Below are positions 47,027 to 50,202 of a stretch of DNA of 64,000 nt, one piece after another. Source of the stretch: Thermococcus stetteri (GTDB lineage: Archaea; Methanobacteriota_B; Thermococci; Thermococcales; Thermococcaceae); NCBI RefSeq assembly GCF_017873335.1, contig NZ_JAGGKB010000005.1, positions 1-64,000 of the forward strand, given 5' to 3'. The notes below the pieces were generated by a model. That model worked only from the letters and a program-made list of their open reading frames with translations. It was not told the origin of the DNA and did no database searches. The translations under genes were made by a program, and so were the position numbers. How positions within the stretch are numbered: position 1 is the stretch's first letter; every line of letters begins with the position of its first letter.

Positions 47027-47034
47027 TTTTTAAA
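47027..47034 (+). promoter_or_regulatory. TATA box of the fluoride operon
   Basis: GAAATTTTTAAAGC lies 22-29 nt before the first base of the riboswitch, as expected if the transcript begins with the aptamer near 47053-47056. A second TATATA at 47041-47046 would start transcription inside the aptamer and is less likely. Confidence 0.55.
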
Positions 47035-47055
47035 GCTCCTTATATACTCCAGTGC

Positions 47056-47120
47056 GGGCGATGGCGTCCGCCGGGGCTTCGAGCCCGAACCGCCCGAAAG
47101 GGCTGATGACGCCTGTTCTA
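47056..47120 (+). ncRNA. Fluoride riboswitch (crcB motif)
   Basis: The sequence has the fluoride aptamer layout. Helix GGCG/CGCC is at 47057-47060 and 47069-47072. Its loop segment GGCGTC (47063-47068) pairs with GACGCC (47108-47113) as the long-range helix. The third helix GCCC/GGGC (47092-47095/47100-47103) closes a GAAA tetraloop. The conserved CTGATGA is at 47103-47109 and GAACC at 47087-47091. An extra hairpin GGGCT/AGCCC (47074-47086) fills a variable position. I recall the Thermotoga petrophila aptamer having the same three helices with different pairs, which is covariation. crcB and a DUF190 gene, the classic targets, lie downstream in the same operon. Confidence 0.93.
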
Positions 47121-47140
47121 CTCCAGAGGAGGCGGTAGAA
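47116..47140 (+). promoter_or_regulatory. Expression platform: hairpin sequestering ribosome binding site and start
   Basis: TTCTAC (47116-47121) pairs with GTAGAA (47135-47140), and TCC (47122-47124) can pair with the GGA of the ribosome binding site GGAGG (47128-47132). This masks the site and the first base of the start codon. GGCGG (47131-47135) can also pair with CCGCC (47068-47072) of the aptamer. Control of translation start rather than termination is inferred from these pairings. Confidence 0.55.
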
Positions 47141-47955
47141 TGGGCTCGAAGCTTGATGAGCTTGCACGCTTTATCGACATGAGAAAGGCGCTCGAATATG
47201 TGGAGACGAGGAGACACGAGGACGGGGGATACTGCTTCGTCAGCGTTCTCGATGATACCAACGTAAACGATACCTACTACGCGGTCAAGATATACGACCT
47301 GCTCGGCCTTGAACTTCCCGAGAATGAGAAGACCGTAGAGTTTCTCGAGAAGGCCATTCAGCCCCAGACGGCAGTGGTGGCCATAGCTATGGCCCTTGAA
47401 GCTCTCGCCACACTCGGCGCTAAGGACATCGCAAGGGAGCACGTGGACATCATGTACACCAAGTACAACCCCCTCGAAGACAAGTTCGCGGTCGGCCTTG
47501 GTGGAAGCGAGGAGTTCGGAACCGCTACACCGCTGGAGGCAACTTACTGGGTCGTTAAGGCCTTCAAGGCAATCGGCCAGCCGATAAGCGGTGAAGAGAA
47601 GGAAAAGATAAGGGCCTTCGTTATGAAGTTCAGGATGGGGAACGGCTTCGGAGTTAAACAGCCAACGACAACGATGACTTACCAGGCTCTCCACACCCTC
47701 TACGCCCTCGGCTACCGCCCACCCAAGAGCCCGCACTTCAAAAACTGCGAGCTCTGCGGCGATTGGGGCGGCTTCACGGAGGTTCCCTACAGCCTGCCGC
47801 CATACCTTGAGCCGACTTTCTATGCAACGAGGGGACTTGGACTCCAGGGAGAGACCCCTACCTGCCCGAGGAGGCACATCTGGTTCATCCGTCAGCTTCA
47901 GAACTCCAACGGTGGCTTCAGGAGAAGCCTTGAGCTTGGAATCTCGAACTTCTAG
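47140..47955 (+). CDS. Terpenoid-cyclase/prenyltransferase-like alpha-alpha repeat protein (shortened by in-frame TAG)
   Basis: 271 aa as written. At least four repeats of the alpha-alpha toroid type: DGGYCF ... NVNDTYYAVKIYDLLG, FGTATPLEATYWVVKAFKAIG, NGFGVKQPTTTMTYQALHTL and NGGFRRSLELGISNF. A cysteine pair lies in NCELCGDWGG. The frame stops at TAG (47953-47955) but continues NTYRALAVVDAMMRYL to TGA at 48004-48006. The TAG falls in the repeat core where a residue such as Gln (CAG) would be expected, so the full protein is probably 288 aa. First gene after the fluoride riboswitch. Substrate unknown. Confidence 0.8.
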   Translation: MGSKLDELARFIDMRKALEYVETRRHEDGGYCFVSVLDDTNVNDTYYAVKIYDLLGLELPENEKTVEFLEKAIQPQTAVVAIAMALEALATLGAKDIAREHVDIMYTKYNPLEDKFAVGLGGSEEFGTATPLEATYWVVKAFKAIGQPISGEEKEKIRAFVMKFRMGNGFGVKQPTTTMTYQALHTLYALGYRPPKSPHFKNCELCGDWGGFTEVPYSLPPYLEPTFYATRGLGLQGETPTCPRRHIWFIRQLQNSNGGFRRSLELGISNF

Positions 47956-48015
47956 AACACTTACAGGGCGCTTGCCGTGGTTGATGCGATGATGAGGTAC
48001 CTCTGAGTGGTCAGA

Positions 48016-48705
48016 ATGGACCTTATAGGTGTTTATCTCCAGGAGGCAATTGACCAGGGATGTCCAGTGTGCAGAATCCTTCGCTCCTACGAGGAGTCCC
48101 AGATAGATACCATCCTCTACGAACATGTGAACGACCCAGAAGTTCGTAAGAAGTTCCGGGAAAGTCTCGGCCTCTGCACCTACCACGCATGGATGACGCT
48201 CAAGAAGGCATATTCGGAACCACTTCTGGGCCCGCTTGGAGTGGCAATTATTTACGAAGACGTCCTTTCCAAGTACATTGATTCCCTAGAGGACGGAAAA
48301 ATTCCAAAAGAGGAGGAGTGCTTCCTGTGTAAACTGGTTAGGGAGAAAGAAAGAGATACCATCGAAGGCTTTGCTGAAAGGATGGATGAACTGCTCCTCC
48401 TTTACGAGAACTCGGAGGCAGTTCTCTGCAGGAGGCACTACGAGATGCTGCTCTCTGAGGTATCCAAAAGGGACGAGGAGAAAGCAAATGCCCTAAAGGA
48501 AATCCAGGTGAAGAAGCTCAAGAGACTCCAAGAGAGGCTGAAGTCCTTTGTAGACAAGTTTGACTATCGCTCTCAGGAGGAACCTACTAAAGAAGAGGTT
48601 TCTTCACTCCCCTTGGCGATCGAAGCCCTCAAAGGTCTCGAAATTGGGAGTATAATGGGAGAGAATGAGAGCTGCAAAGAGAGGAGGTTCCTGAAGTGGA
48701 GATAA
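48016..48705 (+). CDS. DUF6062-family protein
   Basis: 229 aa, mostly helical, cytosolic. Cysteine/histidine pairs are spaced through it: GCPVC (~residue 15), LCTYHAW (~55), CFLC (~105), LCRRHYE (~140). This suggests metal or Fe-S binding by a repeated C-x2-C/C-x2-H unit. The C-terminal ~60 residues are coiled-coil-like and charged. Second gene of the fluoride operon; the ATG at 48016 is 10 bp after the ancestral stop of the first gene. Family assignment is from memory of its N-terminal pattern. Confidence 0.72.
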   Translation: MDLIGVYLQEAIDQGCPVCRILRSYEESQIDTILYEHVNDPEVRKKFRESLGLCTYHAWMTLKKAYSEPLLGPLGVAIIYEDVLSKYIDSLEDGKIPKEEECFLCKLVREKERDTIEGFAERMDELLLLYENSEAVLCRRHYEMLLSEVSKRDEEKANALKEIQVKKLKRLQERLKSFVDKFDYRSQEEPTKEEVSSLPLAIEALKGLEIGSIMGENESCKERRFLKWR

Positions 48706-49010
48706 TCCTTTCCCCAGAGGAACTTGAGAGAGTCAGACAAAACCGAAAAGAAATAGAAAAGCGGTTCCAAGACTTGGAGGGGCTAGAGATGACACTGGAG
48801 ACCCTTAAGTTCGAGTATCTCCTCGAACACAGGGACAACCTAAAAGCAAAGCTTGAGGAAATGAAGAGAATGTACGCGGAATTAGTTGAACTCGAAGAGA
48901 AGGCAAAACGGGATAGAGAGTTTCTAATGATGGTGAGGGAGGAACTTAGTAGGGAAAACAGAGATTTGAGAAGAGAGCTGGAGGAAAGGAAGAATGAAAA
49001 TAACCGTTAG
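48696..49010 (+). CDS. Coiled-coil protein in the fluoride operon
   Basis: 104 aa from a GTG that overlaps the previous gene by 10 bp. Almost entirely heptad-like charged helix (LSPEELERVRQNRKEIEKRF, LVELEEKAKRDREFLMMVRE), no cysteine, no membrane segment. Probably a structural partner of a neighbouring product. Function unknown. Confidence 0.68.
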   Translation: MEIILSPEELERVRQNRKEIEKRFQDLEGLEMTLETLKFEYLLEHRDNLKAKLEEMKRMYAELVELEEKAKRDREFLMMVREELSRENRDLRRELEERKNENNR

Positions 49011-49407
49011 GGCAAGACGAGGGTGGCGAAAAGTTGTCTTTAATGTTCCAGATGATACTTTTGAGAGGATAGAAGAGTTGGCAAAGCGTTATGGCTTTAG
49101 GATTGATGAGGTTCTGAGGATGATCCTACTCCATGGATACATCGAGCATACGGGGAATATTGAAGACCCTGAGAGGCTTGAGAGTGAGATATCGAAGTTG
49201 GAGAGGGAGTTTTACGAGCTTGAAGGAAAGTGGTCTCCCCTCAGGTTCAAAACTTACTACCTCGTCCTCGACAACCAGAACCTTGGAATACAGCTCTCAG
49301 GGATGATAGCCGAGAACAGGCGCCTAAGAAAAATGCTTGGCAAACCAGAGCGGGACTTCTCCGAGGTGGAGGAGCTTATCCGCTACTACCTTTCCTTTGA
49401 GGACTAG
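48994..49407 (+). CDS. Small helical protein with an RHH-like N-terminus in the fluoride operon
   Basis: 137 aa. Basic start MKITVRARRGWRKVVFNVPD followed by DTFERIEELAKRYGFRIDEV, a strand-helix-helix pattern that could be a ribbon-helix-helix DNA-binding unit. A helical region with a conserved-looking LENQNLG-type motif (DNQNLGIQLSG) follows. It overlaps the coiled-coil gene by 17 bp. A regulatory role is a guess. Confidence 0.65.
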   Translation: MKITVRARRGWRKVVFNVPDDTFERIEELAKRYGFRIDEVLRMILLHGYIEHTGNIEDPERLESEISKLEREFYELEGKWSPLRFKTYYLVLDNQNLGIQLSGMIAENRRLRKMLGKPERDFSEVEELIRYYLSFED

Positions 49408-49445
49408 TATTAAAAAGGAAGGAAAGGGCCTTTGGTGGTGGTGCC

Positions 49446-49817
49446 ATGAACCTCAGGATAGCCATGGTGATAGCACTGGGAGGTGCGTTTGGGGCTGTCG
49501 CAAGGTTCTATATCTCAGGACTGCTCCCCGTCTATAGGGACTTTCCAGTTGGAACCCTGATAGTGAACAGCATAGCGAGCCTAATCCTCGGATACCTCTA
49601 TGGCCTTCTGTTCTGGGGCTTTGATGTCCCGCCGGACTGGAGGGCCTTCTTTGGGACGGGTTTCTGCGGGGCGTTGAGCACGTTTTCAACGTTCTCCTAC
49701 GAGACGTTTTCCCTTCTCCGTGAGCGTGAGTACCTAACTGCAACCCTCAACGTTTTGGCAAACGTTATAATAACAATCCTCCTAGTATTCGCGGGCTTCG
49801 TACTGGCCCGGAGGTGA
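49446..49817 (+). CDS. crcB: Fluoride channel CrcB (Fluc)
   Basis: 123 aa, four membrane helices. Family motifs: [14 protein letters not shown] in helix 1, [20 protein letters not shown] in helix 2, and [15 protein letters not shown] in helix 3, which holds the central Phe/Ser pore residues and the dimer-interface Na+ site. Dual-topology dimers let F- leave the cell. ATG with GGTGGTG upstream; 38-bp gap from the previous gene, with a weak TATA-like TATTAAAAAGG that might add a local promoter. Confidence 0.96.
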
Positions 49818-49821
49818 GACC

Positions 49822-50202
49822 ATGGTTGAAGTAGAGCACTGGAACACGCTCCGGCTGAAGATATACATCGGCGAAAACGACCGCTGGGAAGGAAAGCCTC
49901 TGTACAAGGCGATAGTTGAAAAGCTCCGCGAGATGGGCATCGCCGGGGCAACAGTCTACCGCGGAATCTACGGCTTCGGAAAGAAGAGCCGCGTCCACTC
50001 AAGCGACGTTATGAGGCTCTCAACTGACTTGCCTGTAGTGATAGAGGTCGTTGACAGGGGCTACAAGATAGAAAAGGCGATATGCGAGATAAAGCCGATG
50101 ATAAAGGACGGGATGATAACGGTTGAACCTGTCATCGTGGTCTGGGTCGGCACTAAGGAAGAGATCGAAAAGTTTGAGGAAGATGCCGTTAGAGAAACGT
50201 AA
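49822..50202 (+). CDS. DUF190-family protein next to crcB
   Basis: 126 aa, PII/CutA1-like ferredoxin fold: [40 protein letters not shown] and [17 protein letters not shown]190 proteins are habitual neighbours of crcB and may regulate it. Starts 4 bp after crcB. End of the fluoride operon. Confidence 0.9.

Follow-up and report, generated by a model that had tools for sequence, protein, structure and literature searches.

A fluoride riboswitch of the archaeon Thermococcus stetteri lies in a 64,000-nucleotide stretch of its genome (contig NZ_JAGGKB010000005.1, positions 1 to 64,000 of the forward strand; hereafter the window). Gene order across the family Thermococcaceae indicates that the conserved target of this switch is a gene for a ring-shaped helical protein, here called the toroid, whose position is that of TK0513 in T. 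kodakarensis. The usual reading of a fluoride switch is that it controls an exporter, and Speed et al. (2018) reportedly treat the fluoride riboswitch upstream of TK0513. Comparison of genomes argues that the arrangement is real and ancient. We regard as probable, taken as a whole, the explanation that this is a fluoride-response locus with the toroid as its conserved target and a switch that masks the start codon and so acts on translation.

Linkage of the switch to the toroid gene

The family set comprised 94 Thermococcaceae genomes of six genera, and the window genes were located in each of 103 collected switch loci, 88 of them primary and 15 of a second type without the toroid. The riboswitch is present in 88 of the 94 genomes, and the first gene behind it is the toroid in 88 of 88 primary loci and in all six genera, a recurrence which argues that the junction is not a product of chance. 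Ninety genomes carry one copy of the toroid and four carry none, these four being at most 80% complete; toroid sequences are 61 to 93% identical across loci. Searches of 21 further genomes of the phylum turned up no toroid, and among 84,980 species genomes scanned, close relatives came from Thermococci only.

An earlier note on this DNA, made from the sequence alone, had proposed that four leading genes with no known fluoride role form one module between the switch and the channel gene crcB. It was right in placing a fluoride riboswitch at the head of a transcription unit that opens with genes of no known fluoride role, and the synteny comparison that it had proposed shows conservation at the junction of switch and toroid. 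The single module did not hold up, as only the toroid is constant; the genes for a DUF6062 protein, a coiled-coil protein and a ribbon-helix-helix (RHH)-like protein are facultative, complete in 49 of the 82 primary loci that have at least 4 kb of downstream sequence (the loci also used for the count of crcB) and absent from T. kodakarensis, a near relative.

The leader and the toroid gene of the window contain the following features.

47021 to 47036, forward strand: BRE (transcription factor B recognition element)/TATA-like promoter box GTGAAATTTTTAAAGC; position weight matrix (PWM) score 14.3, with shuffled sequences averaging about -1.5
47048 to 47122, forward strand: fluoride riboswitch aptamer RF01734; cmscan 51.5 bits against 34
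47063 to 47068, forward strand: pseudoknot 5' strand GGCGTC; partner at 47108-47113
47076 to 47086, forward strand: GCTTCGAGCCC, one arm of the insert hairpin in the aptamer; perfectly complementary to 47142-47152 in the open reading frame (ORF)
47108 to 47121, forward strand: pseudoknot 3' strand and tail GACGCCTGTTCTAC; predicted partner of the start region when the pseudoknot is absent (folding, conservation)
47128 to 47132, forward strand: Shine-Dalgarno sequence GGAGG, 7 nt ahead of the ATG
47135 to 47153, forward strand: putative start-codon masking target, GTAGA plus coding nucleotides 1-14 (ATGGGCTCGAAGCT) (conservation)
47140 to 48006, forward strand: toroid gene encoding a PF00432-like ring protein; 288 codons up to the TGA, with an interruption at 47953; position orthologous to that of TK0513 (Pfam, AlphaFold)
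47953 to 47955, forward strand: in-frame TAG, codon 272, a near-invariant Gln in relatives (alignment, model)

The aptamer is the sole Rfam match in the whole window (E 2.3e-11; 34 bits is the gathering cut-off), and this covariance-model check, together with the promoter box, supports the earlier placement of a fluoride riboswitch behind a TATA box. By a PWM trained on 76 switch promoters, the window's own included, the box scores on par with the equivalent box of other switch loci, and transcription would be expected to start near 47052-47056, about 25 nt past the TATA box. Fluoride binding and fluoride-dependent expression are expected of the window switch from its membership in RF01734; for the T. 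kodakarensis switch, fluoride binding and response are the subject of PMC8241225 and PMC7137780.

Fold of the toroid and its in-frame stop

Over 288 residues the window toroid matches Prenyltrans PF00432 (42.2 bits, cut-off 26.5), as do all 25 members tested, at E 0.001 or better. Its AlphaFold model (predicted local distance difference test, pLDDT, 91; predicted template modelling score 0.90) is a ring of helical hairpins, with six inner and six outer helices and an invariant polar interior, and match and model together place the protein in the PF00432 fold. Foldseek searches with the model returned RabGGTase beta and squalene-hopene cyclases as best matches, and farnesyltransferase beta, at E values of about 1e-5 to 1e-3 and 10-16% identity; template modelling (TM) scores were 0.55-0.73 for the best, and glycosidases were also found. 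The DxDD motif of class II terpene cyclases was not found among the invariant columns of the toroid alignment. In an alignment extended by hand, Pro131, Glu133 and Met179 appear at the sites of the Asp, Cys and His zinc ligands of prenyltransferases. The resemblance to prenyltransferases and cyclases appears to be one of fold only, and the earlier label "terpenoid-cyclase/prenyltransferase-like" stands for the fold.

The window ORF is not intact: the in-frame TAG cuts it from 288 to 271 codons, and the same frame continues to the TGA at 48004-48006. Because the TAG ends the ORF early, the gap to the DUF6062 gene is 60 nt rather than within the 38 bp allowed by the earlier note, and it shrinks to 9 nt only with readthrough. 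The 16 residues past the TAG remain conserved with respect to relatives, whose codon at this site is Gln, in 95% as CAG. In the model the part removed is the last inner helix (residues 271-285), and the 271-residue product is probably not functional. Comparison of the toroid with near relatives gives a ratio of nonsynonymous to synonymous substitution (dN/dS) of about 0.04-0.07; the TAG is therefore no part of a long decay and would be either a nonsense change of recent origin or an error of assembly.

An RNA element reaching into the coding sequence

In 87 leaders the aptamer tail GACGCCTGTTCT and the surroundings of the start, (GG)TAGAATGGGCTCGAAGCT, are near-fixed, unlike the intervening spacer, whose length and sequence vary. 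Folding joins GACGCCUGUUCUAC to GUAGAAUGGGCUC, the latter holding the AUG and codons 2-3. GACGCC is at once the 5' part of GACGCCUGUUCUAC and the 3' strand of the pseudoknot, so the start-masking helix and the pseudoknot would be mutually exclusive. For 72 tails folded at 75 C, an unpaired AUG has a mean probability of 0.32 when the pseudoknot strand is free and of 0.76 when it is taken; for the window's own AUG the value goes from 0.08 to 0.42 at 60 C, and the change is small at 75-85 C. Pairing of the pseudoknot strand with the Shine-Dalgarno sequence alone was rejected as a mechanism, since the accessibility of that sequence, unlike that of the start codon, hardly changes (0.53 against 0.54 at 37 C). 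The pseudoknot itself, GGCGUC/GACGCC, is altered on both strands, to GGCGCC/GGCGCC, in genus g9 of our analysis, which we take to be Pyrococcus.

Conservation extends into the ORF. Coding nucleotides 1-14 of the toroid are 93-100% identical across the 87 loci, and identity drops to 56% at nucleotide 15. Codon 2 is GGC wherever Gly is kept and codon 3 is TCG in 95%, against top shares of 32-73% in 15 other conserved Gly columns and 32-57% in five other Ser columns, which argues that the start of the gene is under constraint at the RNA level and not at the protein level alone. At least 9 contiguous Watson-Crick bases can join the insert hairpin to the ORF start in 70% of the 87 loci, compared with 0.17% for shuffled inserts. 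The insert is non-complementary in 6 of 6 loci with altered codons 2-3 and in 8 of the 81 others (Fisher 6e-6, uncorrected for kinship). The tail/start helix is paired in 87.6% of cells, as opposed to 37-55% when it is slid.

These observations lead us to predict a translational ON switch that masks the start codon. Without fluoride, the pseudoknot would fail and GACGCCUGUUCUAC would fold onto GUAGAAUGGGCUC; in addition or as an alternative, the insert hairpin would pair with GGGCUCGAAGC. Either pairing would bury the AUG and the nearby ribosome site. Fluoride and Mg2+ would lock the pseudoknot, withdraw GACGCC and open the start codon. PMC8241225, citing Speed et al. (2018), presumes that the T. 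kodakarensis fluoride riboswitch regulates translation, so that the mechanism proposed here may in part be in print already.

The facultative insert, crcB and DUF190

The remaining genes of the locus in the window are these.

48016 to 48705, forward strand: DUF6062 protein with two Cx2C...Cx2H modules; PF19538 83.5 bits, cut-off 27
48696 to 49010, forward strand: coiled-coil protein; ORF, no library match above cut-off
48994 to 49407, forward strand: RHH-like N-terminus and conserved helical C-terminal domain (GKWSPLKF...DNQNLAIQLSGMIAENKRLRK); alignment, model pLDDT 74
49446 to 49817, forward strand: CrcB (Fluc) fluoride channel; PF02537 104.9 bits, TIGR00494 99.6 bits, cut-off 80.45
49822 to 50202, forward strand: DUF190 (PII-like) protein; PF02641 137 bits

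The gene order and the DUF6062, CrcB and DUF190 labels given earlier agree with these assignments, with PF19538, PF02537 and PF02641 all above cut-off. The Cys and His residues of both DUF6062 modules are invariant in the alignment, and the protein probably binds zinc; no DUF6062 gene was found outside the switch locus in 15 genomes searched. The label "RHH-like" has a beta-alpha-alpha N-terminus in a low-confidence model in its favor, and library matches are weak and below cut-off; a structure search with this model gave no significant match. A paralogue occurs elsewhere in 13 of 13 Thermococcaceae genomes tested, and the protein may be a local regulator. Genomes G001, G015 and G056 retain remnants of the block, which show its loss, and the distribution indicates that DUF6062, coiled-coil and RHH-like genes form an old, repeatedly lost insert. 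Where present, they would be transcribed with the toroid.

The tie between the switch and crcB is, judged by gene order, loose. Although crcB lies downstream in 70 of 82 loci, and genome G011 shows the plain order switch, toroid, crcB, the Pyrococcus order is switch, toroid, an optional coiled-coil gene and the RHH-like gene, with crcB and DUF190 elsewhere in the genome; five Pyrococcus crcB regions scanned contained no Rfam match. Eight Thermococcus genomes carry an opposite-strand Na+/H+ exchanger gene, or its remains, between the switch unit and crcB (PF00999, tested in L045). The toroid is kept in genomes G022 and G052, which lack a CrcB match, and in G051, where crcB is a fragment; in G096 the toroid is debris, the aptamer is gone and crcB is intact. 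In most genomes of genus g10 the distance from toroid to crcB is 21-34 nt, and the two are probably co-transcribed. In the window, 38 nt separate the RHH-like gene from crcB and the PWM found nothing ahead of crcB that resembles the BRE/TATA box of the switch, just a weak TATTAAAAAG, which makes co-transcription from switch to crcB plausible. The separate strong crcB promoter that the earlier note had named as counting against its operon is thus absent from the window in that form. Nor is such a promoter a family rule, a good box being present in 31% of genus g1.

Second switch and neighboring genes

A second fluoride riboswitch stands directly before an operon resembling membrane-bound hydrogenase or formate hydrogenlyase in 15 Thermococcus genomes, that of T. 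stetteri not among them (loci L055, L056, L057, L119, L121, L122, L125-L132 and L134). In L121 the operon behind it has matches to PF00146, PF00361, PF00346 and PF01058. The leader of this switch repeats GACGCC right behind the Shine-Dalgarno sequence. Just upstream of it, in L055, L056, L119, L121, L122, L125 and L129-L131, is a short gene related to the C-terminal domain of the RHH-like protein (hmmsearch E 3e-9 to 3e-7).

At the primary locus, a gene for an archaemetzincin-type M54 peptidase (window 46248-46946, reverse strand; Pfam E 1.4e-38) diverges from the switch and is kept beside it in most Thermococcus loci. The exchanger loci are L039, L044, L045, L051, L090, L095, L097 and L100, and Na+/H+ exchangers are a known class of fluoride-switch-associated genes. 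In G052 (L191), which has no CrcB match, promoter, leader tail and toroid have outlived the deletion of the aptamer, a natural switch-free toroid. On contig 1 of the T. stetteri genome (L203:4387-5742), an RHH-like paralogue adjoins genes that by eye look like winged-helix/nucleotidyltransferase and HEPN-like genes, possibly a toxin-antitoxin type pair.

Alternative explanations

A conventional exporter operon, in which the switch serves crcB and DUF190 and the intervening genes hitchhike on one mRNA, would account for the frequent downstream position of both genes (the 70 of 82 loci), for spacing in g10 that is too tight for a promoter and for a window crcB lacking a switch-like box. We consider it unlikely, as the link is broken in Pyrococcus, in G056 and at the eight exchanger loci, crcB of T. 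kodakarensis (TK0514) has its own transcription start site (PMC4247193), the toroid persists where crcB is lost, and junk would hardly stay first at every primary locus at the identities observed. The reading of the toroid as an active isoprenoid enzyme, one that would alter membrane lipids or, in line with the earlier note's idea of protecting or replacing fluoride-sensitive isoprenoid-diphosphate enzymes, stand in for such an enzyme, draws on the PF00432 match and on RabGGTase beta and squalene cyclases as best Foldseek matches (E about 1e-5). It too seems improbable: DxDD is missing from the invariant columns, the zinc-ligand positions seem to be occupied by other residues, the locus has no gene for an alpha-subunit partner, and glycosidases have the same ring fold.

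A further alternative concerns mechanism. Most bacterial fluoride switches studied act on terminators (PMC2864571, PMC11077080), and the crcB RNA of T. kodakarensis shows up as an 86-nt species (PMC4247193), as might be expected if fluoride altered termination or elongation in the leader. Such a transcriptional switch is doubtful here, since no T-run terminator is visible in the leader and the spacer is variable, while the complement of the start codon is fixed and extends into the coding sequence.

Several points weigh against a translational switch with the toroid as its target. Folding predicts a masking helix that is marginal at 85 C and, in the case of the window, from 75 C upward. Its covariation is no greater than in shuffles, because the helix hardly varies, and covariation was dropped as proof of it. 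Tail and insert hairpin offer two alternative maskings that compete for one set of bases, and the start may instead be conserved because of constraints on initiation or on the N-terminus. The TAG suggests that T. stetteri may not need the toroid, whose function is read from context and fold alone, and the loci and sequences are mutually related, so that our counts overstate independence.

Significance and comparison with known systems

An export-independent role of the toroid in the fluoride response is the best current reading, because the gene is strictly tied to the switch and persists without crcB; our guess is that, apart from export, the protein has a small molecule as its substrate or ligand under fluoride stress. 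In T. stetteri, where the toroid is truncated, the switch may mainly serve the downstream genes, crcB included. The strongest form of the proposal, in which the toroid is a new fluoride-response protein independent of export and the primary reason for the riboswitch, with translational masking lying partly inside the coding sequence of its target, is one we hold tentatively. Throughout an archaeal family the switch has stayed with a ring-fold protein, even where the exporter gene moved or was lost, and the locus points to an unstudied part of fluoride coping in these archaea. With TK0513 in the genetically tractable T. kodakarensis, the toroid is a testable candidate for a new fluoride-resistance function, and the leader offers a base-by-base model for a natural archaeal riboswitch acting on translation.

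The toroid shares its ring of helical hairpins with the beta subunits of protein prenyltransferases and with terpene cyclases. It differs from them in sequence (13-16% identity), in lacking DxDD and, apparently, the zinc ligands, in standing alone and in being confined to Thermococcaceae at the sensitivity used. Bacterial fluoride switches likewise precede non-exporter genes, accessory genes including enolase, pyrophosphatase, a Na+/H+ antiporter and formate hydrogenlyase. In Thermococcus, too, an exchanger adjoins the locus and a hydrogenase-type operon follows a second switch. The parts of the bacterial sources available to us (PMC11139923, PMC2864571) name no PF00432-like toroid among the associated genes.

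Both the riboswitch and its position ahead of TK0513 have been described: a 2014 study of T. kodakarensis placed the crcB RNA upstream of TK0513 and not of crcB (PMC4247193), so the earlier view of the module as undescribed is too broad. The identity of the target, its family-wide fixation behind the switch, independence from crcB and the element within the coding sequence appear to be new, as far as the literature could be checked. Compared with the RF01734 locus of T. kodakarensis (PMC4247193), the window has the same aptamer and the same following gene at the same locus, adds the DUF6062, coiled-coil and RHH-like genes before crcB and carries a stop in the toroid ORF.

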